Below are positions 13,753-49,150 of a stretch of DNA of 64,000 nt, piece after piece. The DNA is taken from positions 1,984,001 through 2,048,000 of the forward strand of contig CAWUHX010000010.1 in NCBI GenBank assembly GCA_963922205.1, given 5' to 3'. The first letter of the stretch is position 1. Every line of letters begins with the position of its first letter. The stretch is from Romanomermis culicivorax. Its lineage: Eukaryota > Nematoda > Enoplea > Mermithida > Mermithidae. Position numbers and translations under genes: made by a program. The notes beneath the pieces are model-generated. The model had not been told where the DNA came from and searched no databases. It worked only from the letters and a program-made list of their open reading frames with translations.

Positions 13753-13960
13753 GGGTAGTACTAAAACCCGGATCATGTCCACGGATCCGGATCCGGATCG
13801 GGTGTCTAAAACCCGGATCATCACGGATCGGCGGATCGGCGGATCGGGGGTTTGGCTCGCCAAACCATGTTTTTAGGTGTCTAAAACCCGGATTATCACG
13901 GATCACGGCGGATCAGTCCGGTGATCCGGATCCGTGGAAAATTCGTCTAAAACCCGGATT
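13753..13960. promoter_or_regulatory. Left terminal half-site cluster (likely transposase sites)
   Basis: Four copies of the word CTAAAACCCGGAT lie at 13761-13773, 13804-13818, 13879-13893 and 13945-13959, the inner three preceded by GT. They are separated by CACGGATC and CGGCGGATC boxes. The mirror cluster is at 46971-47169. The same word, joined to its inverse, makes the 36-bp palindrome of the internal arrays. Repeated terminal words in a transposon are usually transposase binding sites, so that role is inferred. Confidence 0.65.
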
Positions 13961-14019
13961 TTCATCACGGATCACCCCCCACGGATCGGGTTTGTATGTA
14001 CTAATTTTTGATCGGGAAC

Positions 14020-14300
14020 CCGAATTTTTGATCCGGATCACGATTTTTTGATCCGGATCAAAATTTTTGATCCAAATCAAAATTTTTTGATCTAGATCAA
14101 AATTTTTCGAATTTTTTCGTCGTGATGAGTATTTTCACGTCACATAATCAGAATTTGATCCAGATCAATATTTTTGATCCGGATCAATTTTTTTTTTCAA
14201 ATTTTCACCTGGAGTAAAATTTTTCGTATTTTAACGTCGTGATGAGTAAATTAACGTCACATAATCAGATTTGATCCGGATCAAATTTTGATCCGGATCA
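14020..14300. repeat. Left cluster of GATCCGGATC palindromes
   Basis: Repeated palindromic word TTTTGATCCGGATCAAAA and variants (GATCTAGATC, GATCCAGATC), spaced by T and A runs and by the box TTCACCTNGAGTAAAAT. More copies occur at 14766-14790. The mirror cluster lies at about 46020-46910 in the right arm. Confidence 0.8.
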
Positions 14301-14339
14301 AATTTTTTTTTTTCAAATTTTCACCTAGAGTAAAATATT

Positions 14340-17300
14340 TCAGAAAAGAAAATTTTAAAACGATTGAACCACAACCGTGAATCATCCCGAGCAACTTCTA
14401 TAAGATGTTGAACATCTGATAGAACGGTTGTTAAGCCATTAATATTGACCTCTCGCTTAGTAATTGGATTGAAATTGGATCCATACGGATCTTTAGTCGG
14501 TTGGTTCAATTACATAATGAAGACTATTTTGCAGGTGTATATAAAGAAGAGAAAAGCATTGAAACATCACGTCGACGGGATGATATAGAATAAATGCATG
14601 TTTATTAGGATTTTTTTCATTGCAATTATTTGTACGGATCTGGATCCGTGTATAATGTTAGTTGAGCAACGGTTAAAAATTTTTGTTTTCAAATTTTCAC
14701 CTAGAGTAAAATTTTTGGTATGTTAACGTCGTGATGAGTAAATTAACTTCACATCATCATATTTTGATCCGGATCACGACTTTTGATCCGGATCAAAATT
14801 TTTTTTCTTCAAATTTTCACTTAGAGTAAAATTTTTCGTATTTTACCGTCGTTAAGAGTAAATTAACATCACTTAATCAGATTTCTATCCATCACATAAA
14901 CAGATTTTGATGTGGATCAATATTTCATCAAAATTTTTTTCAAATTTCCACCTAGGGTTAAAGATTTTCGATGTTTGACGAATGTAAATTTTTTGTATTT
15001 TGAATTCGAATAAAATAAAAAACAGTTTTTGAATAAAATAAAAAACGATTGAACCAACCGTTTAGTGATGTTGTTCTAAATTTGACGATTCTTCAAAATG
15101 CAACATCTGATAGAGCAGTCGTTGAACCATTCAGTGGTTATGTTGTTCCGTAATGACGGCACATTCTGCACGTATCCCTACGGGATTCAGATCCCGACGG
15201 GATCATTATTCGGTGGGTTCAATTACATAACTAAGTCAATTTTGCAAATGTATATAAAGAAGAGAAAAGCATTGAAACATCACGTCTACGGGATAACACA
15301 GAATAAATGCATGTGTATTAGTAGTGTTTTTATTGGTTTAGTAGGCTTTTTTATAATAAATGCATGTGTATTAGGATTTTTTTTATTGCAATTATGTGTA
15401 CGGACCTGGATCACTATTTTTGATCAGGTTTGGATAAATATTAAAAATATTTTGAAAAAGAAAATTTTGTAAAACTATTGAACAACAGTGAAGTGAATTT
15501 CCGACTCCACTCAGCATCTGATAGAACAGTAGTTAAGCCATTTCCTGTTTTGTAGTTCGATTAAAATTGGATCCCTACGGGATTATTATTCGGTTGTTCA
15601 ATTACATAATGAAGTCACATTTGCAGGTGTATATAAAGAAGAGAAAAGCATTGAAACATCACGTCGACGGGATGACAGAGAATAAATGCATGTGTATTTA
15701 TTCTGTATAACCGGTTTTACATAGAATAAATTGTATTAGTATTCTTTTTATTGCAATTTTGTGTACTTATCTGGATCCGTGTATAATGCTAGTTGAGCAA
15801 ACATTAATCACTTATTCCAAATGTTTACCCAGCCATGTTTTCCCAGCCATATATGTTTACCCAGCCTTATATGTTTAGGCAGAAAATTTTTTTACGAATC
15901 TGGATCCGTGGAGTGGTTTATTTAAATTTTGTGTACGGATCTGTATCGTTATATGTGAATACGTAAAGTATTTTTATTCGTTAGCCATTTATTGTGCTTT
16001 ATTATGCAATCAAGAGTCGGCATAGTTTTCTGGGCATTAAGTAAAGTAACAGGTTAGTTATTGGTTCCATGACTTTACATATATTTGTGTATAAAAAATT
16101 TAGGAGAAAATGTATTTGAATTTGTATTATGTTAAACTGCACCTAGGTTTGAAAAAAAAAGTTTACGGATCTGGATCCGTGTATATACTTTCTATATGTC
16201 TATGTTTAACTTAAAATGCAAAAGGATTGAACAACCTCAAGGTTCGGTATTGCCGAAATCGATAAAATAAATTTCGATAGAACAGTCGTTTAATCATCAA
16301 TTAAGTTTTTGCCTTTCTGGTTTGTTCAAATCCTAATGAGCCCATATTGGCACACATATATAAATTCGATGAAACTGTAGAAACATCAAATTGACGGGTT
16401 GATTCGAATATTTAACGTGTGTCTAAAACCACATCAAAAGTAGGCAAGTGGAGTCACCAGATCAGTACATTTTGATCTGGCGCCATGTAAATATTCAACT
16501 TAAACTGCAAAAGGATTGACTAACCTCAAGGTTCCATAATTCCATAATCTATCAAGTAAAACTTGAATAGTAGAACAAGTAAACATCGATAGAACAGTCG
16601 TTAAGTCATCGATGTAGTCCTTTTTGGTTAATCAAATCCTAAGAGCCAATAATGGCATATGTATATAAACATGAGGAAACTGTAGGAACATCAAATTGAC
16701 GGGTTGGTGCGAATTTTTAACGTGTGTCTAAAACCACATCAAAAGTAGGCAAGTGGAGTCACCAGATCAGTACATTTTGATCTGGCGCCATGTAAATATT
16801 CAACTTCAACTGCAAAAGGATTGAATAACCTCAAGGTTCCGTAGTCGACGAAATAAATTTTGATAGAACAGTCGTTAAGTCATCGATTATCCATAGTCCA
16901 CGAAATAAACTTTGATAGAATAGTTGTTAAGTCATCGAATTTGTCCTTTTGGTTAATCAAATCCTAATGAGCCAATATTGGCATATGTATATAAACATGA
17001 GGAAACTGTAGGAACATCAAATTGACGGGTTGGCGCGAATTTTTAACGTGTGTCTAAAACCACATCAAAAGTAAGCAAGTGCAGTCACCAGATCGATACA
17101 TTCTGTTGTCAATGCTGGAATACATTTGCAACCCGTCACTTTTATGTTTTATAAGAAAAGTTGAAAATATATACTTTAACTGCTATTTTGTAGTTACGAT
17201 AGAACAGTCGTTAAATCATTGATATAATGTTTAGCCTGTTCTATTTTTGTTTTTTTTTTAATAAAATGGTAATTCAAATGGAAAATATTTTTCCAATAAT

Positions 17301-18325: not shown

Positions 18326-21300
18326 TTAACAATCTAGAAAATACAAGGCATATTGTAAAACATGCCCGTTTGCACTACCTTCTTCTACTCGAACCATTTT
18401 TTCCTGCAAATCGTCGCAAAGGTAATATTCCTTTGATGAAGTTCCTGGTCGAAGGACGATGCATGCGAAGTGGTTGGAGTTATAAACAATAACCGACAAC
18501 AGATGATATCTGAAAAATGTAGAGTTGAAAAAAACAAAACACAACTCCAGTTTGTTTTTACCGTCGTCGATTAAACGTCAACTCCGTCGGCAATGCAAAA
18601 ACGTCATTGAATGGTGCGTTGCACAAATAAATTGGTGGCAACATGAGTAGCTGTTGCATCGTAAAGGTAGGCGCAAAATAAGTTCGTATACCCGGACATT
18701 TTGTCGACCCGTTCTCATGTCTTTGTCCACAAATTTGCTTATGTTTGCGAAGATGTTTATTCGCCAAATTCTCGATCGTTTTATCTTTAATGGTACTATA
18801 ACATAAACGGTAAAGTCCAATTGAGAAAAACAATTTTCGCAAACCTCAAACGTAACTTTTCACTTTAAAACAGAGTGATCCGTAACGGCTTGGTACGGAT
18901 CACCTGAATTTCAGACTCAAAAATGTCGAAAAAAGTTTGCCAACTAGTTCGACATACTAAACAGGGTCAGGGGAACACATTAAAATCAAAATTTTAAAAT
19001 TTTAAAATTTTTTAAAATTTTTTAAAATTTTAAAAAAAAATTTAAAATTTTTTAATTTCGTTATAGAAATGTCCGCCGTACTCAGAAACGTAGGAAAACA
19101 TGTTTCCCCAACCCGGAACACAATTTTTCACTTCAATAATTGAGTGATCCGTGGCTGAGTGATCCGGGTTTTAGACATGCATGTCTAAAACCCGGATTAT
19201 TTTTTCACGGATCACCTGAATTTCAGACTCAAAAATGTCGAAAAAAGTTTGCCAACTAGTTCGACATACTAAACAGGGTCAGGGGAACACATTAAAATCA
19301 AAATTTTAAAATTTTAAAATTTTTTAAAATTTTTTAAAATTTTAAAAAAAATCTAAATTTTTTTAATTTCATCATAGAAATGTCCGCCGTACTCAGAAAC
19401 GTAGGAAAACATGTTTCCCCAACCCGGAACACAATTTTTCAATTCAATAATTGAGTGATCCGTGGCCGAGTGATCCGGGTTTTAGACATGCATGTCTAAA
19501 ACCCGGATTATTTTTTCACGGATCACCTGAATTTCAGACTCAAAAATGTCGAAAAAAGTTTGCCAACTAGTTCGACATACTAAACAGGGTCAGGGGAACA
19601 CTTTAAAATCAAAATTTTAAAATTTTAAAATTTTTTAAAATTTTTTAAAATTTTTTAAAAAATTTTAAAATTTTTTAATTTCGTTATAGAAATGTCCGCC
19701 GTACTCAGAAACGTAGGAAAACAATATTTCCACTTCGAATTGGGTATGCAAACACTTTTTAAAAAGAAAGAACTTTTAACAAGTATCTCAAAACCTAAAG
19801 AGATTAATTAACAAAAGACTTACAGTGCATAGCCGGTTATTTCTTGGGTGTTAATCCGCATAGGGCATTTGGCTACGGAACACTCGCTGCGGCGTTGTAG
19901 AGTGTACAAGGTGTTGATATGGCTCAAGAAGAACTCGTCGGCGGCACCGTATAAATCGATCTTTGTGCCCGAGCCGTCTTTGGTTATATTTTTCTCTTGT
20001 ACCGCATTCTTTTGGTAGCGTATGTAATTCACCCACTCCAATGCAGCTTCCCCGAATTGATGTTCAAGTGCCAATGTCATGGATTTTTTTAACATTGACA
20101 ATTCGATGGGTAGCTGTAAAGTATGAAATTAATTCATGAATGTTATGTAATATAGCATTTAAATTACCTGTCGCAAGAATTTTGGACAAAACTTAGCCTT
20201 AATATAGAAAGTTGTAAGGCCAGGATCGATTGTACAAGTATTCTGAAGTTGATATTTTTGAACAGTCGGCGAATTTCGGAAGTAATGAATAACGAAGCAG
20301 TGCGTGCATTCCCAATAAGATTTGTTTTCGGGTTTTCTTCGATTATTTTTAACCGAAAAATAAATATCGGAAATATTTTCGCAGTCGGGATGATACCACA
20401 TTCGGCAATTTTCGGCAACTTGGGCATCGCATTCAAGCATGCGATTGACGGTTTTATCGACTTGACATTCGCAGAATGTCGGCTTCGCATCTTTCGATTT
20501 TAATGACATGTTCAATAAAGCATCGTCGTCGACATCGCTAAGGCGGTCTAATATTTCCTCATCCTCTTCAGGTTCTAAATTCGAGAGGTTGTTAGTAATT
20601 AGCGTTGATAAGTCCATCTGAATGCAAAAATTAAATTAGTTCAACTAAAAAATAATTCTAAAATAAATTAAATATTACTGGTGGTTTTTGTCGCATTTCC
20701 GGTATTAAATCCGTGTCTTCAATTTCATCGCAGGTTGGAATTTGCGAATCAATTATAATTGTAGTCTCTCTTAAATAGAAAATGGTAATGTGATTAAAAT
20801 AGGTCTGAATATGTAAGTTTACTGAAAGATGTTAGTGCAGATCCTATTTGTTACATGTTTACCTTTTTGTATTTAGAGCTACGGTGGTTTGCGATTGTGA
20901 TTCCACCAAAACTGTCGCCTGGGAGTTGAAATTGGGCGGAGACGCATTACCGATCTTATCGAATAATGATTCGCATTCTTCTTCTATGCGTCTGAATTGA
21001 ATAATATGTAAATTAGATTTTTAACCTCAATGATAACAAGTATACTTTAACCACTTACTCAAGATGTTTCGCATTTAATCGACCGGCATCGTAGGCACAA
21101 TTTGTTGTTTCCTCTGAATGCCCGCGGCAATTCGTAAAATCGCTGTTATTTTTTTCAACGGCATCAGTTTGCGAATCGTAGGCACAAGTAGCTGTATCTA
21201 CTTGAGTGTCGAAATGCAAATCTTTTGTCGCAGGCTTCTGAATTTTGACGTCGTCAACACAAGTAGCTGTTTCTACTTGTTTGTTAGCAGGCTGCCTGAT

Positions 21301-24013
21301 TTCTACGTTCTTATAACAAGTAGCTGTATCTACTTGTGTGTTTGCGGGCTCGTCATCCTCGTCGTCAAATTCAACATCCATAATTTTCGGCTTTACGTTC
21401 GTAAAGTCGTCCTTGCGAGGTCGTTTGCGTCCCAACTTTGATTTACTTATTTTTCGTTTGTCCGCACGTCGCAAAGTTGTGATGTTTCTGGTTGCCTTCA
21501 CGTTAACTGGTAAATTGCACGACAAACAAGCGGCAATCAAGTGGGCGCATGCCTTGTCGCCGCAACCGCAGCTGGTGGGGTTGAATCGAACTAGATACAC
21601 CTGGCCGTTTTCGGTTGCGTTGAAGCACTAAAAAAAATTTGCAAATTAATTTAAAAAAACATAAACTACATTATGAATTATTACTCTTGAAAGGGTGTCG
21701 TGGACCACCTTTCCATTTTCGACCAAAAATTGACCGATTCGGAAATTTGAATCGGCATCTCCGCGGTGATCTAATTTTGGCTCTTCCTTCTGCGGTTGTA
21801 CGTATACTTGGCCAAATCGACAATATTGTAAAACTTTTCCGGGTTCGATTATATCTCGTTTCGGCATTTCGTTGGCAGGCCTCAATGGAATGTGGTCGTT
21901 TAGCTTGAAATCCCCAAGTCCATATTTGGCGCGGTCATAATCGACGTTGTAATAATTAAACAGAGTGTGGAAAGCGAGAACGGCCACGTCGATGGGCATT
22001 TCTCGCCAAGAATTCCAGCTCTTTAGGACTCTGTTGAAACTTTCGCTAGCGTTGGTCGTTATGCCTAAAATACGTATTTAAATTAATTAATGAAAACTAA
22101 AAATTATCAATTAAAAAATATATATTTAAATTATTTAATGAAAACTATAAATTATTAATTAAACAATATATATTTAAATTATTTAATTAAATTTATATAT
22201 TATTTGCTTTAGTAAATTATAACTATAGGCTTTTGACGTATGAAAACATTACGTTTGTTAATATTTGAAATAATATCAAAATTAACATACCTGAGAAGCT
22301 GGAGTAAATTCCGACCGGTTCCAACACCCATTTTCCGCTTGTTCGAACAGCTGGGGCAATGGACGAAAAGTAATATTGTTTGAATTTTTCGGGCCATTTT
22401 TCGCTAAGTTCTTCAGCTTTTAATGCTGCTAGTTTCTCTGAGTCCGATTTTAGAATCGAATACATATCGCTCACTATGTCAACACGCATGTCGTTATTTT
22501 TGGGAAACAAATCGGTAATTTTACGAGTAACGTTGTCGAGTAAATGTCGCCAACAGTAAACGTGAATCGTGTTTGGCGTCAAATTTCGGAAATCAAATTC
22601 GCGATCGGTAATTAGAACGGTTTTGACGGTCCCATTCGTTATACGAATGGGTAGCTGTCGAAAAATTTTTTTTACGAAGCGGCAATGGTTTTCTCTGAAT
22701 TTTTTCTCGTGTATAAGTACGGCGAGTGGGAAAACCGGTTGGCCGGTAAGGCTTTTTTGGCGATAAATTAATACTGACGCATAAAACTCGCCCAATTCAA
22801 ACGTCGTGTCGTAAAGAACGACAAATGGCTCGTTTGGATATTCTGTTATTAATTCGTTGATTATTTCGGGCGTGTCCGGCAACATACAGGAAACCAAAAA
22901 GTCTTGAGGCGTTTGTTCAATGCTCAATATAAATTGGCGTTCATTCTCGCGAATGAACGTGTTTAAATTGTATATGGCGTCCTTTGTCGGCCGAAATTTA
23001 TTTTGAATAACGTATTTGAAGTTTGACATCTAAAAGAGTAATTTTAGTTTGTAACACATTTATACTTTAAAACTATGACTCTTGTAAAAATTGTACTAGT
23101 TGACATATTTATTTAATTATATTTACTTGTTTTCGATCTCTGGCATGTACGATAGCTTCCAGTCCCGGTGGAGCAGGATTGTCTGTTCTAATTTTTTGGT
23201 ACAATTGAGCAGCGGTAAGGTTCGGATCTCTTTGAAGTTCCACTTCTACGAGTTTCTTGATTACTGGAGCATTTCGAATAAAGACTCTGTCACTATTCGA
23301 ATTATAATGCTTTCGCTTGACGCCATATTTTTCATCGCCAACGTAGTGGACTACTCCGACGTGTAGTTTTTCGTCCACTGGTGTTTTTATCTGCCGATAT
23401 TCCATTCTTTTAAATTTCTTCTTTGCTTCGGAATTTCGATCGCAGGCGACAGCGTAGTGAGTAGCTGAATACTTTGGATTAGACCTCGGAAGTTTTCGAA
23501 CTCCATCGTTTACCCAATTAAAACAATCGCAGAGAAAGGTTTCTATGAGGAAGTACAAATATTATATAAGGTTAACATAAATAATGTAACCTGTTAATTA
23601 CTATCTTCTTTGCTGGAGTAAGGAAACAAGTAAACGTCTCCTCCTTTTGGACAAGGTGACGGTTTGTTGATTAATCGTTCTGCGTTAGCCGAACCTTAAA
23701 TATTAGTTACAGTTGGAAAACATACAATACAAACAACTTGTAATTAATTTTGGATGTAAGTTTCACCAAAATAAACAATTAGCTTACCGATTAACTTATC
23801 CAAGTCCTTATATTCTAATCTGCATTGTCTGTTGGTCATAACGGGAATGGCACATCCTGAATTAACTGGCGTATCTTCCGTTTCGGCAGATGTTGCATTT
23901 GCATTTGATTCGATCTTGGGCAGATCATCTTTAGGTTGATCAACTTGCGACGGTAGACTAGGAGTTAGCTTGAAATCGTCGTCGGAGTCGTATTGGTTGT
24001 CGTCCGAATACAT
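18326..24013 (-). CDS. MULE transposase fused to SWIM, PHD and C19-like protease
   Basis: Twelve exons on the minus strand: 24013-23788, 23694-23602, 23542-23127, 23029-22291, 22064-21685, 21627-21059, 20991-20863, 20769-20679, 20617-20168, 20113-19824, 18795-18562, 18509-18326. The sum is 3801 nt, giving 1266 aa, with consistent phases. Residues ~75-245 form a Cys/Trp-containing basic module, likely DNA binding. The transposase core has D319 in YDTTF, D387 in ITDRE, the C404/H407 pair in CWRHLL, and E499 in TNASESFN. The SWIM finger CGCGDKACAH is at 638-647. A PHD-like finger spans 930-988. A papain-fold protease follows, with a Cys box (TCTIDPGL, C1009), a zinc-ribbon-like Cys region and a His box (NHFACIVL, H1218). 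Homology to ubiquitin-specific (C19) proteases is my best guess; a Ulp1-like fold is the alternative. The start at 24013 is the first ATG of an acidic N-terminus. Intron 10 contains the 311-bp array. Confidence 0.88.
18870..19735 (+). repeat. Left internal tandem array, about 311-bp units
   Basis: About three units inside intron 10 of the transposase gene. The marker ACAGGGTCAGGGGAACAC occurs at 18961, 19273 and 19584, a period of 311-312. Each unit contains a TTTTAAAATTTT tract, AGAAATGTCCGCCGTACTCA and the boxes GTGATCCGTGG and CACGGATCACC. Perfect 36-bp palindromes, made of ATCCGGGTTTTAGACATG plus its inverse, sit at 19162-19197 and 19473-19508. The outermost unit has lost the palindrome. 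It is an inverted copy of the array at 41190-42600. Confidence 0.92.
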
Positions 24014-24860
24014 TACTTGAGTAGCTGTGAGCGACTTTGTGAATGTCAATTATTGTTGACTTTGTGAGTAGCTGACAGACAACGAATTTACTGTAAATTC
24101 TAATTGCTACGTCGTGGTCTATATCGACAGAGAATAATTTGGTTGGTGACGTGTGAGTAGCCGAGGTAAAAGCGGAAAATCGTTGAATTTTTAATTTCTA
24201 TCGTAGACGGTGTGAGTAGCTGTGGATCCAATTACGTAATTGCGAAAAAATACAATTTCATTCGTCGTTTGCTAAAGCAAAAAATACGAAAAATAATTAA
24301 CAATCAATAATACCATAAGCATTAACTAAAATTACTTAATACATTAGGCTAACACAAAAAGTAATATTAGTTGTCAATCTTACTTTTAGGCGTCATTCGT
24401 TGTTTCTTTGAAATGCAAGACTCGGGCAAAAATGCGTTGCGTTGCTTGCGCTGTGCGATGAAGAAAGCGCAATATCAATGTTACAGTAAACAGCTACCTG
24501 CAATTTGAAATGCAATATATGTACAAACATGAACACAATTTTATCTAACAGTCACAATATTTATTTCACATGAACAATATGACGACATTTTATCTTCTTT
24601 AGGTTTTCAGGCCAAGATTTCACAATTCTATACATACATGACCCATCAATCCAACCCAAGATTCGTAACATTCTTCATTGCGCAACTTCCTGTCCATTGT
24701 CCACTTGGAATGAGTGACCAGTAAACATTACAGTAGGAAATGAATGTTTACCTTTATGCACAAACATGGACTTTGCCCCTAAGATGCACCTTAATAGAAT
24801 AGTGTATCATTCTTGCTTGAAAGAAGAAGTACTCTACAATTTTTTTTTCACTCACTCGAA
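24014..24860. promoter_or_regulatory. Divergent intergenic region between transposase and Arg-rich gene
   Basis: Separates the minus-strand transposase start from the plus-strand small gene, so it should hold both promoters or leaders. It carries CAGCTAC words on the minus strand at 24021, 24068 and 24216 and on the plus strand at 24491. The polarity of this word flips here. No clear TATA box at a suitable distance was identified. A near-identical copy lies at 33774-34614. Confidence 0.5.
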
Positions 24861-25683
24861 ATGCCTCGCATTCATGTATCAATAAGCATTGGGAGACATC
24901 GAAGAAGAGTGGACAATGCCCGGCGTCATCCACGTCGTTTGCGTAGACGGGCCAGACAGCTACTCAACGGCAATCAAGATCATGTCGTTGGTGTAGCTAA
25001 TCCAATTCCGGAATTTCCCCAACGCGAACCCCCGCAAGACGAACAGCTACTCAACGGCAATGAAGACCCTGTCGTTGATATGGCTAATCCGATTCCAGAA
25101 ATTGACGATGATGATTTGCCATTGATTTTCATAAGAGCACCCCGAAGAGGTAAATAGATTCCACATTGTAACCATAATCATTTGAAAAATATGAAAAAGG
25201 AAGATCATTATGTAAACAGAAGGATAATTATGCTGTATAAAGGAGATACATTGAAAGTTAATAATTGTCCATAATTTTTTTTCCAACGAATGTTCAGCGC
25301 GACGAGGACAACAACATCGGCGACGCAACAATAGACAAATTGGGGTTAGGCGTCGGAACATGAGACGTGGTGCAAACCCTCCACGCCGCGAAGAAAGTCC
25401 AGATAATCTACAGATCGACGAACTTCATCATGTTAATGTTGATCAATTCAACGATGTAATTATGAATGGAATTGGCCAAGGGTTTGCCGAAGTAGAAGAT
25501 CCGCCACCTATATTCGAAAACATGGATGTCGATGCGGACATAAACATTGGCCAACTTCGAGGAGCACGCCGAGTATGCTGGCGAATTGGGGTAAGTTTAT
25601 ACAACAGAGTACGTTGGTGGAATTCCAATGGTTGGGTTCCTTGCCCGCGTAGGTCCTCCTTCAATACTAGTCTAAATTTTTAA
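24861..25683 (+). CDS. Small Arg-rich protein of the MULE, copy 1
   Basis: Two exons, 24861-25149 and 25298-25683 (675 nt, 224 aa). The N-terminal half is strongly basic (RRHPRRLRRRARQ) and contains a 29-residue internal duplication around QLLNGN and ANPIPE. The second exon starts with another Arg cluster, then turns acidic and ends VPCPRRSSFNTSLNF. I do not recognise a family. It lies between the two large genes and shares direction with the helicase. The open frame is preserved almost unchanged in the second copy, but the two may be the same locus. It could be a nucleic-acid-binding accessory protein; that is a guess from composition. Confidence 0.55.
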
Positions 25684-27074
25684 TATTAATGTAGAGTAAT
25701 GTTTATTATTGTGTTTTGTAAGTACTGTGAGTTTTCCATTTTATTGTGATGTGTGCATGTGTTCATTGTTTACTTCTAGTCACAATGTATTCGATGTGGT
25801 TTTTTCCAAATGCTACTTAGGTTGCTATGCTCAAAAGCCTACTGCTGTAGTACAAATTTAACCCGAAACATAACTGAATAATTTTATAATTTGAAACGTA
25901 ACGTAGAAATTTGAATGTTTTAACAATTTCAATTTATAGATACATGTAAGTTTTTGTTTTGGAAGAAACCTTGTTTTGGAAGAAACCACTCTTTGTATAT
26001 ATGTAATGTTAAAATGGTTTAATTTGTGCACGTTAATTTCAATTTTAAGTTTTGTTAACATTTATTTTATTTCTTTATGTTTATGTTTGGTTTTTATGAA
26101 TTTTTTTGTCAAATTAAGTTTTACTTTTTTCCCAATTTGTTAATGTTTTGTTTATTACTTTTTTTTTAATTTTGTTAGGTTTATATTACGCACATTCATA
26201 AAAAAAATTAAAACCAAAAAAAAATAAAAAAAAAAATAACAAAAAAAAATTTTAAAATTAAAAAAACACAAAAAAATTCTTTAATTTCCTAATTCTGTCT
26301 CTATCCGTCTATGTTTTCTAGTCATGGTTGTGTACAATTTTCTTTATATATTTGTTTTATCTTTTGCACGGTTTTTTTTAGTTTTTTAAGTTTTGCACAT
26401 GGCCGTGCGTAACCTCAGGGTCCACGTCCCCACGGCTGGGCACTATTGCATTTAAATTTGCAATAGTGGCAAATGGAGGAGTTGAGTAGAAAAATACTGC
26501 TCGGTTTTGAAATATTTTACCGACATTCATTATAAGTGACTAAAACCTTTCATTGTTGGTTCATGGTAACGCGAAAGTGCATAAAACTATAATATGCATT
26601 TTGTGTTATGACAAACAAGTTATATCCGAATCCTGAAAATAAAAGAATAAGATGAATAGTTTACTGTAAATCCATCACTCACAATTCGCAAAACTTTTTT
26701 CCAAAACTCCGTTCCAATTCAACGCCGCCCCCCGCCACCAAATCATCATCGCTTCGCTGGTGCAAAACGGGAAGCCGAGATCAAGTGTCAAAGCTTATCG
26801 CAACCTTCAGAACAATAGGTAACCATTAATTATGACGGGGGGGATATTGGCGATTTACGTAACTTTTTTAGACAACGTTGTGAAAACGTGTTACACAGCT
26901 ACTCGTTTTACAACAACCAACCTTTACGTACGATTTATTATTTCTTTCGTTGATTGTTGGCGAAGCAACTTTTTGTACAGCTACTCACGTTTACAACGAT
27001 AAACGTGAGGCCTCATTTTATTTATTTATCGTTGAACAAGCGGTCGTGTTTCCTGTTTCTTCACGACAACTAAT
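25684..27074 (+). other. Spacer before the helicase gene, copy 1
   Basis: AT-rich spacer with long A and T runs (26170-26280). At about 26441-26468 there is a hairpin with a 10-bp stem CACTATTGCA/TGCAATAGTG. Just before the helicase ATG lie two CAGCTACTC words (26896, 26978), probably in the leader. No ORF of interest. Confidence 0.5.
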
Positions 27075-30972: not shown

Positions 30973-31072
30973 NNNNNNNNNNNNNNNNNNNNNNNNNNNN
31001 NNNNNNNNNNNNNNNNNNNNNNNNNNNNNNNNNNNNNNNNNNNNNNNNNNNNNNNNNNNNNNNNNNNNNNNN
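30973..31072. other. Assembly gap (100 N)
   Basis: Exactly 100 undetermined bases, the conventional size for a gap of unknown length. Left of it the sequence stops inside helicase exon 12. Right of it the sequence resumes inside transposase exon 6 (equivalent to 21313). This is the joint between the two near-identical core copies. Confidence 0.99.
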
Positions 31073-34614: not shown

Positions 34615-35437
34615 ATGCCTCGCATTCATGTATCAATAAGCATTGGGAGACATCGAAGAAGAGTGGACAATGCCCGGCGTCATCCACGTCGTTTGCGTAG
34701 ACGGGCCAGACAGCTACTCAACGGCAATCAAGATCATGTCGTTGGTGTAGCTAATCCAATTCCGGAATTTCCCCAACGCGAACCCCCGCAAGACGAACAG
34801 CTACTCAACGGCAATGAAGACCCTGTCGTTGATATGGCTAATCCGATTCCAGAAATTGACGATGATGATTTGCCATTGATTTTCATAAGAGCACCCCGAA
34901 GAGGTAAATAGATTCCACATTGTAACCATAATCATTTGAAAAATATGAAAAAGGAAGATCATTATGTAAACAGAAAGATAATTATGCTGTATAAAGGAGA
35001 TACATTGAAAGTTAATAATTGTCCATAATTTTTTTTCCAATGAATGTGCAGCGCGACGAGGACAACAACGTCGGCGACGCAACAATAGACAAATTGGGGT
35101 TAGGCGTCGGAACATGAGACGTGGTGCAAACCCTCCACGCCGCGAAGAAAGTCCAGATAATCTACAGATCGACGAACTTCATCACGTTAATGTTGATCAA
35201 TTCAACGATGTAATTATGAATGGAATTGGCCAAGGGTTTGCCGAAGTAGAAGATCCGCCACCTATATTCGAAAACATGGATGTCGATGCGGACATAAACA
35301 TTGGCCAACTTCGAGGAGCACGCCGAGTATGCTGGCGAATTGGGGTAAGTTTATACAACAGAGTACGTTGGTGGAATTCCAATGGTTGGGTTCCTTGCCC
35401 GCGTAGGTCCTCCTTCAATACTAGTCTAAATTTTTAA
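34615..35437 (+). CDS. Small Arg-rich protein of the MULE, copy 2
   Basis: Exons at about 34615-34903 and 35052-35437. The product matches copy 1 apart from rare substitutions, with the same internal duplication around QLLNGN. See the copy at 24861 for the description. If the core duplication is an assembly artefact, the two entries are one gene. Confidence 0.5.
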
Positions 35438-36829
35438 TATTAATGTAGAGTAATGTTTATTATTGTGTTTTGTAAGTACTGTGAGTTTTCCATTTTATTG
35501 TGATGTGTGCATGTGTTCATTGTTTACTTCTAGTCACAATGTATTCGATGTGGTTTTTTCCAAATGCTACTTAGGTTGCTATGCTCAAAAGCCTACTGCT
35601 GTAGTACAAATTTAACCCGAAACATAACTGAATAATTTTATAATTTGAAACGTAACGTAGAAATTTGAATGTTTTAACAATTTCAATTTATAGATACATG
35701 TAAGTTTTTGTTTTGGAAGAAACCTTGTTTTGGAAGAAACCACTCTTTGTATATATGTAATGTTAAAATGGTTTAATTTGTGCACGTTAATTTCAATTTT
35801 AAGTTTTGTTAACATTTATTTTATTTCTTTATGTTTATGTTTGGTTTTTATGAATTTTTTTGTCAAATTAAGTTTTACTTTTTTCCCAATTTGTTAATGT
35901 TTTGTTTATTGCTTTTTTTTAATTTTGTTAGGTTTATATTACGCACATTCATAAAAAAAATTAAAACCAAAAAAAAATAAAAAAAAAAAATAACAAAAAA
36001 AAATTTTAAAATTAAAAAAACACAAAAAAATTCTTTAATTTCCTAATTCTGTCTCTATCCGTCTATGTTTTCTAGTCATGGTTGTGTACAATTTTCTTTA
36101 TATATTTGTTTTATCTTTTGCACGGTTTTTTTTTAGTTTTTTAAGTTTTGCACATGGCCGTGCGTAACCTCAGGGTCCACGTCCCCACGGCTGGGCACTG
36201 TTGCAATTAAATTTGCAATAGTGGCAAATGGAGGAGTTGAGTAGAAAAATACTGCTCGGTTTTGAAATATTTTACCGACATTCATTATAAGTGACTAAAA
36301 CTTTTCATTGTTGGTTCATGGTAACGCGAAAGTGCATAAAACTATAATATGCATTTTGTGTTATGACAAACAAGTTATATCCGAATCCTGAAAATAAAAG
36401 AATAAGATGAATAGTTTACTGTAAATCCATCACTCGCAATTCGCAAAACTTTTTTCAAAAACTCCGTTCCAATTCAACGCCGCCCCCCGCCACCAAATCA
36501 TCATCGCTTCGCTGGTGCAAAACGGGAAGCCGAGATCAAGTGTCAAAGCTTATCGCAACCTTCAGAACAATAGGTAACCATTAATTATGACGGGGGGGAT
36601 ATTGGCGATTTACGTAACTTTTTTAGACAACGTTGTGAAAACGTGTTACACAGCTACTCGTTTTACAACAACCAACCTTTACGTACGATTTATTATTTCT
36701 TTCGTTGATTGTTGGCGAAGCAACTTTTTGTACAGCTACTCACGTTTACAACGATAAACGTGAGGCCTCATTTTATTTATTTATCGTTGAACAAGCGGTC
36801 GTGTTTCCTGTTTCTTCACGACAACTAAT
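35438..36829 (+). other. Spacer before the helicase gene, copy 2
   Basis: Second copy of the AT-rich spacer at 25684-27074. The hairpin stem is damaged here (CACTGTTGCA on the left side). The CAGCTACTC words ahead of the helicase ATG are kept. Confidence 0.5.
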
Positions 36830-39800
36830 ATGTCCTATTCGCACTCACATATCGACGAGCCTGCGCCGTTTGAGGTAACTTGTCTTTCAAAATCAAACAT
36901 TAGTGATAATTCTAAGTTGTATAATTATTTGTTAGCCTCCGATCAACGCCGAAGTTGAGGAGGACTTCGATGAATTAGACGCCGTAGAAGTACACTACGA
37001 AGAATTCCATGAACCTCAAGAACCAATAAAACATATTGCGCCGAATACTGTGTCGTACGACCACAATAATGTGAAATGCAGTTTTGATTACGAAACTGGA
37101 TTCAGCGCTTTTGTGGAGCGGACAGTCGACGAATCAGACGAATTTGAAAAACCATGTCAGAAAGCTGCGTAAGTCCTTCGTTATTTTTTTCCGTTCGTGA
37201 TCTTGTCGGTCTACAGTTCCACGCATACCTGTAGGACCTACGATCAGTCAGGGGGGGGGTAAATGCGAAATTTTGGGAGACCTCCGCTCCGACCAGTTGG
37301 TGGGGGGGGGGGTTGGAAAAAGTCGAAATTTTCCCCAAAAAAGGCCAAAAAACATACACTTTTTGACAAATTTTTTTAATTTTTTCCCAACTGGGGGGGG
37401 GGGGTTGTGGGGGGGGGAAATGATTTTGGGTATAGGGTTGGCCGAGTTGGGGGAGGGGTCCCCCCCAGCCCCCCCCAAGTACAGGTATGGTTACACATTG
37501 TATTTACCGCAAAATTCCCCCAAAAAAACCCTGTTTTATTGTTGATTATTTACAACTGATTTTAGGTATCATTCGCCGAACGAATATTACAATACTTTTT
37601 TACACTGGATAAATCAACAAGCCGACGATAATGATAAAATGTTGTTGGCGTTCAGCAAACACTTTCAGTCAATCGAGTACTTGCTAGATCCGCCTTCATA
37701 CGCCACAGGAAAATTGGACTTCAGCGGGCTGCTACCCAATTGTGAGTTGATATGTCATTTTGACCTCATTGCAATTCAAATCCAACATATATCTTTAGTC
37801 GTTCGTCCGAATCAAAAGATTCAATTGACGATTTTGGAGCTTGGAGGTGATGGCAGATGGTACGAAACTGATGCGTATTGCGACGCAACGCTACTCAATG
37901 TACCCGATAGTGAGTAATCGAGTAGAATAAAATTTAATAAAATTTATTACTTGCAATTGTTTTTAGATAGAAGCGCCAATTTAGTCGTCGACATCCTCAA
38001 GTTTCGCATAAACAAGTTGCAAAAGTGGATGGCATCGAAACATGCACCATTCGATACTGATGCCGAAGATCAAGACGATGCAGAAGACCTGGAATGGGAC
38101 CAAGATGCCGCCAATGCCCTAGGAAAATTTGTCGAATCAAGTCGCCAACCGGGCCGCAAAATGTGCAACATCCTTTGGAAAGGAGATGATACGGCGATGC
38201 AAAGGTATAGGTGTATAAAGCATTCATATTTATTTTTTGGGTTCGTAGACCTTCAAATTTTTTGTCGTTGAGCATCACCGTTTATTTAGAACACTAAACT
38301 GCCTCAACACCATAAAGCACTTGAGCATGGTGGACTCCAACACCGCAATGTGGCGGTTAAAGTTGAAAGAAAAAGAGATGGGCACTAAGTATATCGATGA
38401 AGCCTCCGGAATGCCGCTCCGACCTCTCAATGAAACAGCACCACAGATTAGCGAACCCATTCGTGATCTATTGATTCGTGGAAAACATCGTGATCCCACA
38501 GCTACTTGTCGATATCGCGATATAGGCGCAAATCGCAACGACCTGTTTGACTCTTGCCGTCTGAACATGTCTCAAAAAGAGGCCGTTCGCCTTTCAGAAT
38601 CGAATTTTATTTCGATAATACAGGTGATAATATCAAGATATTTATATCTTTCAACTCTTACGCTTAACTTGTTTGTACAGGGCCCGCCTGGAACGGGAAA
38701 AACATCCACAGCTACTTGTATTATTAGACGAGCATTAGCCCTTGATCAGGGTCAAAAAATATTGATAACGGCGCCTTCAAACACTGCCGTGGACAATATC
38801 ATACGAGCACTTTTGAAAAGTGTTGAAAATGCAGGCAATGAAAAAGAACGCGTTCAAAATAACATCGTGCGCCTTACCAGCCGAGCTAAGTACTACCAGC
38901 CGGACGATGATATTCGACCCTACACAATGCGAGCCGTAGCAATGCAGCCGGAAAATTTGGCATTTTGGTAAAGATATCTAAACTTTATAATACATAATTT
39001 GTTTCCGTCTGTTTAACATTGTAATTGTTTCTATATTTTCAACTTCAGCAAAACAAACTGGAGGCAATGCATCGAAATGAAGTATGGTGAACACTCACGA
39101 AAGACACCACTCACGAAAGACGAAGACAAAAAAGCAGATGCGTGCCTATTCAAATACGAAAAACAGCTACTCAGGTGCAAATATCGTATAATCTTTACGA
39201 CTTGCAATGGAGCAGCCGATGCCCGCCTAAAAGCATGCTTTTTCAAACTGGTATTGATCGACGAAGCAGCCCAGGATACTGAACCAACCACCTTGATTCC
39301 GGTTACAAGACTTCACATAAGTGGAAGGGTAATGAACTGTTAGATATTTCCCTTCCAAGTACTATGTTTTCGTTCATTTTCGCTCTTTCAGGTAACCCTT
39401 TTAGGCGATCCTTGCCAATTAGGGCCGTGTGTGACTTCCAAAGAAGCGGAACGAAAAGGATTCAGTCATACCCTGTTTGAGCGGTTACACAACATGAACA
39501 TGCCGTACAAATTATTGAACCAACAATATCGAATGCACCCGACAATTGGAAGCATAGTCAGTAGTTTGACGTACGAAAATCGGGTACAAAATTGTACCAC
39601 CAAAGGTAACAATATGACTCAGTATAGGGACAATGTTTAAAATGATTTGAGTACTAGTAAATTTTATCGTTTCAACATTTGTGCTTATAGAACAACGCAT
39701 GCTGCAACTTCCGAAATCATTTCCGACAATGATGACTGGATATCCCGTAGCTTGGATTCATATAGCGAAAGAAGAATGCGCCGACGATAATTCGAGATCA

Positions 39801-42800
39801 CTGCAAAATATAGGCGAAGCAATTGCATGTGTCAATCTAGCGGCTTCCTTAATTGGACAATACAAAATGCGCTGCGACAACATAGTTATTATAACGTCGT
39901 ACAGCGCACAGGTTAAACAACTACGAGCAAAAGTAGAGGAAGCATGCAAAGCCATTTTAAATGGCACATATTTGCAGAATCACAGCTACTCACGTAGCGA
40001 ATTATTCGTTGAAGATCTACGCAAAATTCGAATTGGAACAGTAGACGGGTTTCAGGTGGTAAATTATGATTACTACTTAACTCACTATACATTACTTTAG
40101 GGTTTTTAACAGGGTCAAGAATCCGACATTGTCATCTACGACATCGTGCGATCAAATCAATATCTGACCATCGGATTCTTGGAAAACTTTAAACGTTTAA
40201 ATGTCGCAATAAGCCGTGCGCGATGCTTGCTTATTGTCGTTGGCAACGCTACTATGTTTCCATCGTTGGAAGCAGGAAAGTGTTTCATTGTAAACAAAGA
40301 TCAAATCAACACGGAGGGCCGACGACATTGGCGTAAATTGTTAGAATGGTAGGCAAAACTGATCAATTTATAACCTTATTTCAATTATAGTATATTGCAG
40401 TGCAGTATGTTTTAGTGCATTTTAGTGTAGTTATTTTTCTAAACTTTGATGTTTAGGTGTATTAACCATCGCTGCATACTCGATGCCGTTGGCAAAGAAA
40501 CATCGCTTCCATTTGAAGCCACTTGGCCCTGCATAGGCGACCAACACGAATTGGTGTTGGTTAGAAGTAAGACAGATTGAGTTATTTTAAGCATATACTA
40601 ATTTTAAAGTTGCATTTATATCTCTGTGTTTAGAAATGATGTCGACGCAATATGCACTGACCGTAGGCATACGCGAACATCTAGTAAACGAATTTCGTCA
40701 CGTCGTTATGCCTATTTTGGTCCAAAATGGTTGTCACGTCTACATGGCTCCCGTTTCCACCTATGTTGCCGGTTGGGCTGAAATTGTTGTGTCAGATGTA
40801 CAACAGAGCCTCCACAACCACGTTGTCAACATAATTACGAACAATCTGCGAAATTACGACGAAATGCGAGTCTGTAAGTACTATTAAATGGGACATGTTA
40901 TAGGATTTCCATTACACTAACAATTTTAACAGCTACAAGAAATTGCTTCGTAAACCCGTCGGAAGCTAATCGGGGTGTCGCTTGTCGATCTTGGAAATCG
41001 CAAATTTTCAAGAACGATTTACAGCTACCCAATTTTATGGACAACTGGCATTATCGGGATGCACATTACGCCGTATCGCACGGCATAAAAGGTATTTATT
41101 TGCTTTTTTATGGATATGTTTTCTGTTAGATAGATTTATTAGATTCTTCATAATCAATATTATCTTTTCTGAGTCCTGAAACATTTTCGCCGGACATTTC
41201 TATGACAATTTTGAAAAAATTTAAGATTTTTTAAAAAATTTTAAAAAATTTTAAAATTTTAAAATTTTGATTTTAAAGTGTTCCCCTGACCCTGTTTAGT
41301 ATGTCGAACTAGTTGGCAAACTTTTTTCGACATTTTTGAGTCGGAAATTCAGGTGATCCGTGAGAAAATAATCCGGGTTTTAGACATGCATGTCTAAAAC
41401 CCGGATCACTCGGCCACGGATCACTCAATTATTGAAGTGAAAAATTGTGTTCCGGGTTGGGGAAACATGTTTTCCTACGTTTCTGAGTACGGCGGACATT
41501 TCTATAACGAAATTAAAAAATTTTAAAATTTTTTTTTAAAAAATTTTAAAAAATTTTAAAAAATTTTAAAATTTCAAAATTTTGATTTTAAAGTGTTCCC
41601 CTGACCCTGTTTAGTATGTCGAACTAGTTGGCAAACTTTTTTCGACATTTTTGAGTCGGAAATTCAGGTGATCCGTGAGAAAATAATCCGGGTTTTAGAC
41701 ATGCATGTCTAAAACCCGGATCACTCGGCCACGGATCACTCAATTATTGAAGTGAAAAATTGTGTTCCGGGTTGGGGAAACATGTTTTCCTACGTTTCTG
41801 AGTACGGCGGACATTTCTATAACGAAATTAAAAAATTTTAAAATTTTTTAAAAAATTTTAAAAAATTTTAAAAAATTTTAAAATTTTAAAATTTTGATTT
41901 TAAAGTGTTCCCCTGACCCTGTTTAGTATGTCGAACTAGTTGGCAAACTTTTTTCGACATTTTTGAGTCTGAAATTCAGGTGATCCGTGAGAAAATAATC
42001 CGGGTTTTAGACATGCATGTCTAAAACCCGGATCACTCGGCCACGGATCACTCAATTATTGAAGTGAAAAATTGTGTTCCGGGTTGGGGAAACATGTTTT
42101 CCTACGTTTCTGAGTACGGCGGACATTTCTATAACGAAATTAAAAAATTTTAAATTTTTTTTTAAAATTTTAAAAAATTTAAAAAAATTTTAAAATTTTA
42201 AAATTTTGATTTTAATGTGTTCCCCTGACCCTGTTTAGTATGTCGAACTAGTTGGCAAACTTTTTTCGACATTTTTGAGTCTGAAATTCAGGTGATCCGT
42301 GAAAAAATAATCCGGGTTTTAGACATGCATGTCTAAAACCCGGATCACTCGGCCACGGATCACTCAATTATTGAAGTGAAAAATTGTGTTCCGGGTTGGG
42401 GAAACATGTTTTCCTACGTTTCTGAGTACGGCGGACATTTCTATAACGAATTAAAAAATTTTAAAATTTTTTAAAAAATTTTAAAAAATTTTAAAATTTC
42501 AAAATTTTGATTTTAAAGTGTTCCCCTGACCCTGTTTAGTATGTGGAACAAGTTGGCAATCTTTTTCCGACATTTTTATGTCTGAAATTTGGGTGATCCG
42601 GGAGTATCGGATCCGGGTATTCTAAAAACTCATTATAATTTATTTCAGTTCTTTCGCGACACATTGTTGTGTGGCATATACATTTACGCCACGATATTTT
42701 CCGATTGATGGTGGGGCAATTAACCAAACCGCCCTATTCAATTTATGACGAATATAAGAAACACCATATTCGGTTGATAACCGAAGACGGACAAATCGCC

Positions 42801-43028: not shown

Positions 43029-43449
43029 TTTTTGTATTTTTCCGTATTTTTTTGTTATTGTTTTTGTTACTAGTCTACCGGTGTTCCGGGTGCCGTTTTC
43101 GTTTGTATTCCACTTTTTGTATTAGTTTTTGTACATACTAGTCCAACGCGATTTTTCTTTCAAGTAAATTAAGTTTCACATTCTTATTTACGGAGGGAAA
43201 CTGTAGGGTTGATAGTGTAAATAGTAATAGGTAAACTACATATATGAATAATATCATACAAATATAATTCACAGTTTACTGAATTGGAATTTTTCAACTT
43301 GAGGACGTTAGTATTTCAGTGATTCATTATATTCTAACTAATAATGTACGAATCAGATGCTGAACAAACTTATTTTTATACAACAATGTATTTGTATTTG
43401 CCCATGATCGGATATTACGGATCACACTATAACTGAAAAGGCACATGCA

Positions 43450-46320
43450 AAATAATTCTTCCAACCCGTAGAAATAATGTTCCATTCGAATGCAGCAAAT
43501 AGATATACCGAACATGAATATTGTTGTCAAACAGTAGAACAACCCTCGGTTCTGTTAATCTGCAGTTAAACCACGCCAATTATCAAATCACAATTAATGA
43601 ATTCTATTATTCTGCAGTTAAACCACACCTATTATAAAAGCGCAGGTCCTCAAGTTTGGGTGGACTACTGTTTTCTTTAAAATTCCTTTAAACCTATTTT
43701 TATACAACATTCACAACCATCTATAAACACATGCTAAATAGTTTTTTCAACCCGTAGAAATAATGTTCCATTCAAATTAAGCAGATTCATATAACAAACG
43801 TGAATAAAACAACCAACAGTAGGTCGGGCTCTGTTAATCTGTCGTTAAACCACTTTTCCTCGTCGAAAAGTGAAAAGCAGGTTTCAAATGCTAAGGGCGA
43901 AAAACGAAAAGCAGGTTCGACTACTGTTTTTTAAAATTTGTTGCATTGCAACCTATTTTTTGCATTGCGACCTATTGTGATAAGACGGATCACACTACAA
44001 ACCAAATACTCATGCTGAACTTTTGTTCCAACCCGTAGAAATAATGTTTCACTTGAATCCAGTGGATATATCATGTCATGGACAGAAATGCTAACAAGAT
44101 AATTGGACCAGTCTGTTAATCTGTCGTTAGACCACACTCAGCATATAGCTGTAAGTGGCTTGTAAGGCCAAAGACTAAGCTAAAATTGGCTGGTCCAAAT
44201 TATCTTCTTTTCTTCTTTTCACTTTTAAAACTTTTTTTCTTAATTTTTTTCCATTTCAAACCATATTCCGAATAAGACGGATCACACTACAATGTCGGAT
44301 AAGACGGATCACTCTACAAACATAATACTCATGCTAACCTTTGATTCCAACCCGTAGAAATAATGTTTCACTAATTTCAGGTGGATATATTATGTTGTCG
44401 ACATGAATGCTAAAAAGGTAATTGGACCAGTCTATTAATCTGCCATTAGACCACTCTCAATGAAAAGCTGTAAGCGGCTTGTAAGGCCCAACAGCAAAAA
44501 GCAAGTTCACTGGTCCAAATTACCTTTTTTCTTTGTTATTGTGTTATGTGAATGTCGGATCATACGGATCACACTACAATGTCGGATCAGACCAATCATA
44601 CTACAAACCAAAAACACATGCTACATTTATGTTCCAACCCGTAGATATAATGTTTCACTCAAATCCAGTGGATACATATAGTCCTCATCGGGAATAATGG
44701 CAAGGCAGTAGAACAGCCGTATTGATCTGTTGTTAGACCACAATTTATTGAGCAACCAAATGCTCTTCCTTCGGTTGACTACTGTTTTGCTAAAACTGTA
44801 TTTTGATTTGATCCAAAATACTATATCAGTGAGGTGAAATCCAGAAAACGACAATTATATGGATCCATATGACATACATTTATTCTTAATCGACCCGTCG
44901 GCATGATGTTTCAATGCTTTTCTCTTCTTTATATACACCTGCAAACGAGACTACATTATGTAATTGAACATACCGAACAAGGATTCCGTATGAATCCCAT
45001 TTTGATCCCACAACAAAGCAGGAAATGGCTTAACTACTGTTCTATCAGATGTTGAACATCTTCTAGATGTTATTCGGGATAATGTCACGGTTGTTGTTCA
45101 ATCGTTTTACAAAATATTCCTTTTCAAAATTTTTTTCAAACTTTCCAAATAAACTTACAATACTTTTTTCTAACCCGTACAAATAATGTTTCAATGAATT
45201 GCAGGAGATACATATAGCAAAAATGAATTAAATTGTCAAACAGTAGAACACTAGGATGATTAATCTGAAGTTAAACCACACCTAAATGACGAACAATCTT
45301 GGCTGGACTACTGTTTTTGAATTTTTTCTCAATAAAACTATGAAAAAATTTCCTTACTCATAACGAAGGAAAAATAGAAAATAGAAGAAGAAAGCTTTTC
45401 TTTACGTATTCATAAAGACACGGATCCGTACACAAAATTTAAATAAACCACTCCACGGATCCAGATTCGTAAAATAATTTTCTGCCTAAACATATAAGGC
45501 TGGGTAAACATATATGGCTGGGTAAACATACATGACTGGGTAAACACAGTTATTTGCAATAAAAGAGGTTAATGTTTGCTCAACTAACATTATACACGGA
45601 TCCAGATCCGTACAATAAAAAAAATCCTAATACACATACATTTATTCTATATCATCCCGTCGACGTGATGTTTCAATGCTTTTCTCTTCTTTATATACAC
45701 CTGCAAAAGAGACTTCATTATGTAATTGAACCAACCGACTAAAGATCTGGTACAGATCCGATTTTGATCCAATAACGAAGAAAGAAAGCAACATCAACGG
45801 CTTAACTACTGTTCTATCGGATGTTGAACGTCTTCGGGATGTTATTTGGGATCATGTCACGGTTGTTGTTCAATCGTTTTACAAAATATTTCTTTCCAAA
45901 ATTATTTTGGACTAGAAATTGGACTACTGTTTTTGAATTTTTTCTCAATAAAACTATGAAAATTTTACTACCATGGTAAAATACGAAAAATTTTACTCTA
46001 GGTGGAAATTTGATAAAAATTTTGATCCGGATCAATAGTCATGATCCAGATTAAAATGTGATTATGTGACGTTAATTTACTAATCACCAAGGAAAAATAT
46101 AAACATATATGGCTGGGAAAACATAATGGCTGGGTAAACACGGTTATTCGCAATAAAAGTGGTTAATGTTTGCTCAACTAACATTATACACGGATCCAGA
46201 TCCGTACAAATAATTGCAATGAAAAAAATCCTAATAAACATGCATTTATTCTATATCATCCCGTCGACGTGATGTTTCAATGCTTTTCTCTACTTTATAT
46301 ACACCTGCAAAAGAGACTTC
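43450..46320 (-). promoter_or_regulatory. Right sub-terminal array of TATA-bearing cassettes
   Basis: About nine units reading inwards on the minus strand. The box that reads CAACCCGTAGAAATAATGTT on the + strand occurs near 43460, 43750, 44032, 44349 and 44636. Related forms occur near 44900, 45175, 45660 and 46260. Each is followed on the + strand by a TATATA-like box 25-50 bp away, then ACATTATGTAATTGAAC or a TCTGTTAATCTGTCGTTA hairpin-like box. The arrangement mirrors 14340-17770. The promoter role is inferred. Confidence 0.5.
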
Positions 46321-46910
46321 TTCATGTAATTGAACCAACCGACTAAAGATCCGTACGGATCCAATTTTGATCCCATAACTAAACAAGAGGTCAATATTAA
46401 TGGCTTAACAACCGTTCTATCAGATGTTCAACATCTGATAGAAGTTGCTCGGGATGATTCACGGTTGTGGTTCAATCGTTTTACAATTTTCTTTTCTGAA
46501 AAATTTTACTCTAGGTGAAAATTTGAAAAAAAAATTCGATCGGTATCATTATGTGACGTTAATTTACTCATCACGACGGTAAAATACGAAAAATTTTACT
46601 CTAGGTGAAAATTTGAAAAAAAAATTTTGATCCGGATCAAAATTTTGATCCGGATCAAAATATGATGATGTGACGTTAATTTACTCATCACGACGTTAAA
46701 ATACGAAAAATTTTACTCTAGGTGAAAATTTGAAAAAAAAAATTGATCCGGATCAAAAATATTGATCTGGATCAAATTCTGATCATGTGACGTGAAAATA
46801 CTCATCACGACGAAAAAATTCGAAAAATTTTGATCTAGATCAAAAAATTTTGATCTGGATCAAAAATTTTGATCCGGATCAAAAAATCATGATCCGGATC
46901 AAAAATTCGG
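46020..46910. repeat. Right cluster of GATCCGGATC palindromes
   Basis: Many copies of TTGATCCGGATCAAAA and variants with the spacer ATTTTACTCTAGGTGAAAAT and GTGACGTTAATTTACTCATC. Mirrors 14020-14300. Confidence 0.8.
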
Positions 46911-46970
46911 GTTCCCGATCAAAAATTAATACATACAAACCCGATCCGTGGGGGGTGATCCGTGACGAAA

Positions 46971-47177
46971 ATCCGGGTTTTAGACGAATTTTCCACGGAT
47001 CCGGATCACCGGACTGATCCGCCATGATCCGTGATAATCCGGGTTTTAGACACCTAAAAACATGGTTTGGCGAGCCAAACCCCCGATCCGCCGATCCGCC
47101 GATCCGTGGTGATCCGGGTTTTAGACACCCGATCCGGATCCGGATCCGTGAACATGATCCGGGTTTTAGTACTACCC
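46971..47177. promoter_or_regulatory. Right terminal half-site cluster
   Basis: Inverted copies of the terminal word (ATCCGGGTTTTAG) at 46971-46985, 47037-47051, 47112-47126 and 47157-47169, then the end AGTACTACCC. Mirrors the left cluster nearly base for base. Confidence 0.65.
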
Positions 47178-49143: not shown

Positions 49144-49150
49144 TAAATCT

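Follow-up and report, generated by a model that had tools for sequence, protein, structure and literature searches.

A probable giant Mutator-like element carrying a UPF1-like helicase gene in the nematode Romanomermis culicivorax

Introduction

Most Mutator-like elements (MULEs) are a few kilobases long, encode a transposase with or without one accessory protein, and are flanked by target site duplications of 8–11 bp, mostly 9 bp. In a 2026 survey, the 322 arthropod MULEs covered were 1.4–10.0 kb long and had terminal inverted repeats (TIRs) of 13–1193 bp, with one table row reaching 1527 bp, and the word helicase is absent from the main text as excerpted (PMC13359780). Here we describe a transposon of about 23 kb in a 64-kb stretch of the Romanomermis culicivorax genome (G000:C10:1984001-2048000, hereafter the window; 359 Mb in 595 contigs). 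It carries genes for a transposase, a UPF1-like superfamily 1 (SF1) helicase and a small basic protein, and on sequence comparison it is very probably a giant MULE of the Mutator superfamily with some Rehavkus-like traits. We assign it to this superfamily because of the homology and DDE triad of its transposase, its duplications and its ends, and the element was probably once autonomous. An earlier note on this DNA had regarded a MULE with a helicase as an undescribed architecture; in agreement, a search by title and abstract start of the openly licensed PMC literature, a scope outside which preprints and Repbase reports fall, found no such element.

Boundaries and arms of the element

The transposon occupies positions 13753–47177 of the window, 33,425 bp as assembled, and is bounded by a perfect 9-bp duplication, CAGAAAATT, at 13744–13752 and 47178–47186. 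The sequence GGGTAGTACT starts at 13753, and its reverse complement lies at 47168–47177. Both the duplication and the inverted ends had been pointed out in the earlier note and were recovered here. The outer TIRs (13753–14341 on the plus strand and 46588–47177 on the minus strand) are 97.3% identical over 591 aligned columns. At the inner edge of the left arm, a 311-bp tandem repeat in 2.7 copies (18895–19731, plus strand) finds an inverted match at 41461–42300 with 97.6% identity; repeat analysis places a 312-bp tandem repeat in 4.4 copies at the inner edge of the right arm (41229–42604, minus strand). The mirrored arms, first put at about 4 kb, extend to about 6 kb each, but they are not mirrored over their full length: the best colinear chain between them aligns only about 2.2 kb. 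Strong likeness is limited to the outer 591 bp and the inner 311-bp tandem array (841 bp), and the middle parts between them form a diverged mosaic.

Genome-wide, GGGTAGTACT yielded 1844 matches versus 538 for a reversed control. Among the 48 places examined (of 100 listed), four were ends of this element and the rest were mostly other repeats; GGGTAGTACT alone is unfit as a marker of the element. Three element ends among the fetched loci were identified from end sequence combined with protein matches. In the other repeats (L001-L007, L015-L034), GGGTAGTACT stands in differing contexts, being followed, for example, by TTGAAATATGCC or AGAGGTAAAAATGC.

Other copies and the size of the unit

A copy at C1:1560405-1582964 (22,560 bp; the C1 copy) holds all three genes, arranged and oriented as they are in the window. 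It has its own 9-bp duplication, CACTACTTT, on both sides, and its flanks are dissimilar to those in the window. We consider this copy decayed because its transposase gene contains one stop and its helicase gene has suffered a 28-base loss and small shifts; a further helicase copy, C2a, is damaged as well. A 300-bp end query gave 243 candidates, of which 40 were scored, with 98–100% identity at all 40. The two-ended elements considered below are those from these best 40 of 243 end matches, plus C1.

Perfect duplications of 8–10 bp flank seven of the nine two-ended elements. They measure 9 bp in five, namely the window element, C1, C138 (22,879 bp), C9 (26,422 bp) and C303 (11,921 bp; G000:C303:226751-238671), 8 bp in C10b (19,629 bp) and 10 bp in C178 (33,806 bp). 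The ends of C2b (22,675 bp) and C105 (22,561 bp) showed no matching target site duplication. C303, which has a helicase and no listed transposase, is likely an internal-deletion derivative.

As assembled, the window element contains a direct duplication of 9.66 kb, whose halves (21313–30972 and 31073–40720) are 99.4% identical and both abut a 100-N assembly gap (30973–31072). The doubling is probably an assembly or haplotype artefact, because the C1 copy, whose sequence was read throughout, lacks it and because C2b, C138, C9, C105 and C10b each have one transposase and one helicase locus among the listed matches. C178, with two transposase loci among these matches, departs from the single-unit pattern. 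Its transposase loci (element at G000:C178:293584-327389, 33.8 kb) lie 8.3 kb apart, perhaps reflecting another local doubling. Counted once, the doubled stretch leaves an element of about 23.7 kb instead of 33.4 kb. This is close to the 24 kb (33 kb as assembled) proposed earlier, and six of the eight other two-ended elements measure 19.6–26.4 kb.

Transposase, basic protein and helicase

The transposase gene (19820–24013, minus strand; gene model and homology) comprises 10 exons encoding 1128 amino acids. A protein search returned only two relatives, P0001 and P0002 (E = 1.9e-56 and 7.1e-48), both with PF10551 and both 29% identical across 95% of the query. Scanned against Pfam directly, neither the window protein nor its single exons matched PF10551. 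The blocks YDTTF, ITDRE and S/N-x-SE align in all three proteins with the DDE positions kept, and the alignment also preserves a SWIM-like CxC..CxH motif, read by eye, and a PHD-like C-terminus, which corresponds to exon 20168–20617. PF00628 reached E = 7e-4 on a single exon, short of the Pfam cut-off, and was unreported for the whole protein. The Cys/His pattern aligns with P0002, whose domains are Ulp1 (PF02902), MULE (PF10551) and PHD (PF00628); of these, Ulp1 seems to be lacking in the window transposase. The PF10551-bearing relatives, the aligned DDE blocks and the duplications agree with the MULE DDE transposase recognized in the earlier note. The first assembled copy of a gene for a 224-residue, arginine-rich basic protein lies at 24861–25683 on the plus strand, placed by offset from a model built on 34615–35437; the protein had no Pfam match.

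The helicase gene was modelled on its second assembled copy (36830–41205, plus strand; gene model, Pfam and PDB), where 15 exons encode 1019 amino acids with no internal stops. The first assembled copy (27075–30972, plus strand, start placed by offset) is cut by the gap and differs from the second by small frame-disturbing indels. The protein matches PF13086 (1e-38) and PF13087 (1e-49), and its best PDB match is NAM7/UPF1 (E = 2e-48, residues 357-807/808), in keeping with the full SF1 helicase reported from the first inspection of the sequence. NAM7/UPF1 is an RNA-decay helicase. The PDB matches also include DNA2 and SMUBP-2, which are DNA-acting helicases. Across residues 90–830 the top-scoring database match was 31% identical (7995 candidates scored), and the database search found no relative for residues 100–370. 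We call the protein UPF1-like only, because the N-terminal zinc-binding (CH) domain of UPF1 is absent from the 20 Pfam families listed for it at E up to 1.

Pairing of the two genes across the genome

To place the pairing in a genomic context, we counted loci from exon queries. The transposase query gave 151 matches from the best 150 of 190 candidates scored, with 150 usable rows resolving into 125 loci; the helicase query gave 120 matches, with all 126 candidates scored, and 120 rows resolving into 109 loci. The doubling in the window adds one locus to each count. Pairing was judged from coordinates, and the intervening DNA was read in the window, in C1 and largely in C2b, excluding its 3.5-kb middle. 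The earlier note had suggested asking whether the two genes co-occur elsewhere: a transposase lies within 10 kb at 71 of the 109 listed helicase loci, divergently oriented in 70 and mostly about 6.9 kb away, where simple arithmetic gives a chance expectation of about one such pair. The single non-divergent pair is the doubled stretch of the window.

Within 25 kb, partners were listed for 44 of 54 helicase loci at least 85% identical to the window (43 divergent), for 12 of 19 at 60–85% identity (12 divergent) and for 21 of 36 below 60% (20 divergent). In the last class, the helicases of divergent pairs are 45–55% and the transposases 37–47% identical to those of the window. Because divergent pairs persist at about 37–55% protein identity, sequence divergence indicates that the pairing is old.

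Selection on the helicase

Substitutions were counted between copies, leaving out any codon that had a gap or a stop or fell in an unread exon, and the site fractions of the window–C1 comparison were used in the P values of all helicase pairs. The ratio of nonsynonymous to synonymous substitution rates (dN/dS) of the helicase was 0.05 between the window and C2b (11 synonymous and 2 nonsynonymous changes in 926 codons, P = 2e-6), 0.07 between the window and C2a (20 and 5 in 750 codons, P = 7e-10), 0.07 between C2b and C2a (27 and 7 in 750 codons, P = 8e-13) and 0.23 between the window and C1 (60.5 and 53.5 in 1003 codons, P = 2e-13). The window helicase compared with its own doubled copy gave 0.27 from 3 synonymous and 3 nonsynonymous changes, a value outside the quoted range of 0.05–0.23. 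The transposase ratios were 0.44 versus C1 (P = 2e-7) and 0.54 versus C2b (P = 0.055), and the basic protein gave 0.39 versus C1 (P = 0.005). The helicase was thus constrained more than the transposase (Fisher P = 0.009 for C1 and 0.002 for C2b), and its splice sites are intact in nearly all exons compared between copies. Since dN/dS stays at 0.05–0.23 between the window and other copies, these counts argue that the helicase is a long-term component of the element and no mere passenger.

A repeated sense-strand motif

The motif CAGCTACT occurs at 29 sites in the window (16 with the doubling counted once), all within the element, and at 18 sites in the 50-kb C1 region, all within the copy. Its orientation is that of the nearest gene at 29 of 29 window sites and 18 of 18 C1 sites, minus to the left of the centre and plus to the right; the shorter core GCTACT has one orientation exception in C1. 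Several sites lie within small tandem repeats. The other fetched loci, 198 kb in all, held 18 sites, 13 of them in three loci with element parts and 5 in the remaining ~168 kb. The sequence ACAGCTACTCAC was counted 445 times in the genome versus 36 for its reversed control, with many places outside the listed loci as well.

Ten of the single unit's 16 CAGCTACT sites are coding, and because they use three reading frames (6, 3 and 1 sites), the pattern suggests constraint on the nucleic acid rather than on the protein. All ten are unchanged in C1, which taken alone is weak evidence for constraint, overall identity being 92–95%. Outward and sense orientation coincide in this element, so that a DNA mark and an RNA mark would look alike.

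Proposed mechanism and alternative explanations

We propose that the DDE transposase would recognize the long inverted ends and move the complete unit by cut-and-paste with staggered cuts, which would give rise to the 8–10 bp duplications. Mobility is supported by the ends, the duplications and the unrelated flanks, and the cut-and-paste chemistry would be that of the family. The divergently transcribed helicase may serve as an accessory factor with either the transcripts or the DNA of the element itself as its target. Our tentative preference, held with a little less than even confidence, is that it acts on transcripts and protects them from RNA decay or silencing, which we regard as rather more likely than a role in DNA repair or replication. 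In the latter case the element would be as described and the helicase would assist synapsis, replication restart or gap repair after excision. This alternative, possible though somewhat doubtful, draws on the DNA2 and SMUBP-2 matches, on the help with repair that a 23-kb element may need, and on the outward direction of CAGCTACT from the element centre, as DNA sites might point; it is countered by the ranking of NAM7/UPF1, a helicase of RNA decay, as the best PDB match, and by the sense-strand placement of CAGCTACT, including the exonic sites, which fits transcripts at least equally well. In a more specific and unlikely form of the transcript model, the helicase could recognize the transcripts of the element through the repeated exonic tag ACAGCTACT and shield them against RNA decay or small-RNA silencing by the host. 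If true, this would be a sequence-specific anti-silencing system based on an RNA helicase in an old giant MULE lineage.

Several observations weigh against a uniformly paired element family. No partner is listed within 25 kb for 32 of the 109 helicase loci, including 10 of the 54 close ones (at least 85% identical), nor for 48 of the 125 transposase loci; nine of the unpaired transposase loci, at 66–78% identity, lie on G000:C5, with no helicase listed within 25 kb, and could possibly form a helicase-free sister family. Some unpaired loci may be deletion derivatives, cut contigs, effects of listing limits or, for distant helicase matches, host genes, and others may be helicase-free relatives. 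The unpaired loci, together with the damaged helicases of C1 and C2a and the capture of host sequences described for MULEs (PMC6446971, PMC6431247, as excerpted), would suit a helicase captured once from the host, in the manner of Pack-MULEs, and carried without function. We judge this very improbable given the strong depletion of amino-acid changes between helicase copies, the preserved splice sites, the pairing retained at ~37–55% identity, and a protein whose top database match over residues 90–830 reaches only 31%, with none found for residues 100–370. Two nested or adjacent transposons, one with the transposase and the other with the helicase, could likewise explain single-gene loci and the two-ended C303; this is less probable still, as dozens of loci show the ~6.9-kb spacing and the divergent orientation, the duplications sit at the outer ends, and C303, at 11.9 kb and with ends as in the window, fits an internal deletion. 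Separation of the two genes into different elements, the outcome named in the earlier note as contrary to its proposal, was not borne out, although the unpaired loci remain. Finally, a segmental duplication or assembly artefact in place of a mobile element has a negligible probability: the 9.7-kb doubling beside the N gap is likely to be one such artefact and C2b and C105 lack matching duplications, but the window and C1 flanks are unrelated, distinct perfect duplications bound seven of nine elements, and the copies are dispersed.

Neighbouring features

Open reading frames (ORFs) at about 1300–13042 of the window resemble exons of a putative host phospholipase D gene, and the element is inserted about 0.7 kb beyond the apparent 3' end of that gene. 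On its other side, at 48257–57803, lies a Gypsy-type long terminal repeat (LTR) retrotransposon with LTRs of ~894 bp that are 99.8% identical and a single ORF encoding 2472 amino acids. Residues 880–1037 of this ORF match PF24664 (Monjiviricetes fusion glycoprotein, E = 4e-19) and sit between the gag zinc knuckles and the protease, reverse transcriptase and integrase, to our knowledge not a usual location for a domain of the envelope type.

Comparison with known systems

The element resembles MULE/Mutator transposons in its PF10551 homology, DDE blocks, 8–10 bp duplications, long inverted ends and SWIM-like finger. It differs from the arthropod MULEs of the excerpted survey in its size (~23 kb versus 1.4–10.0 kb), in the added UPF1-like helicase, and in its arms of ~6 kb, of which ~0.6 kb is strictly matching end, compared with TIRs of 13–1193 bp (PMC13359780). 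With Rehavkus it shares 9-bp duplications, and its PHD-like finger and arm repeats recall the transposase PHD finger and the tandem repeats beside the inverted end there, whereas the table for Rehavkus gives one ORF and TIRs of 26–400 bp, and the excerpted main text does not mention a helicase (PMC6446971). The 311-bp arrays at the inner edges of both arms recall the Rehavkus minisatellite before the 3' TIR but are long for a minisatellite unit. Tm1, a Mutator/Foldback element of Meloidogyne, likewise combines composite foldback-like inverted repeats with a MULE transposase and has duplications of 8–10 bp, mostly 9 bp, like the present family; its transposase, however, is a 496-residue protein (FLYWCH and MULE), and a helicase goes unmentioned in the main text as excerpted (PMC3169594). 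Arabidopsis VANDAL MULEs with their VANC anti-silencing system offer a parallel in their accessory genes and in the dense, one-orientation motif YAGTATTAY. VANC-bound motifs are described in noncoding regions, in contrast to the 10 of 16 CAGCTACT sites per unit in coding exons; the passages concerned do not mention a helicase (PMC5735166).

With the UPF1/NAM7 group, the window helicase has the SF1 core in common and differs in the unmatched CH domain and in residues 100–370. The enlarged En/Spm (CACTA) DNA transposons of Chondrus crispus are 16–20 kb long with 4–5 ORFs, as cited in the excerpted text of PMC6431247, and belong to another transposase superfamily. Set beside these systems, the element would extend what has been seen of cut-and-paste MULEs in both size and gene content, and it provides a case in which selection has maintained a full-length helicase within a DNA transposon over a great depth of divergence. 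Since a single genome holds dozens of paired loci in several subfamilies, one can now test why such a transposon retains an RNA/DNA helicase, and the motif repeated on the sense strand gives a handle on self-recognition.

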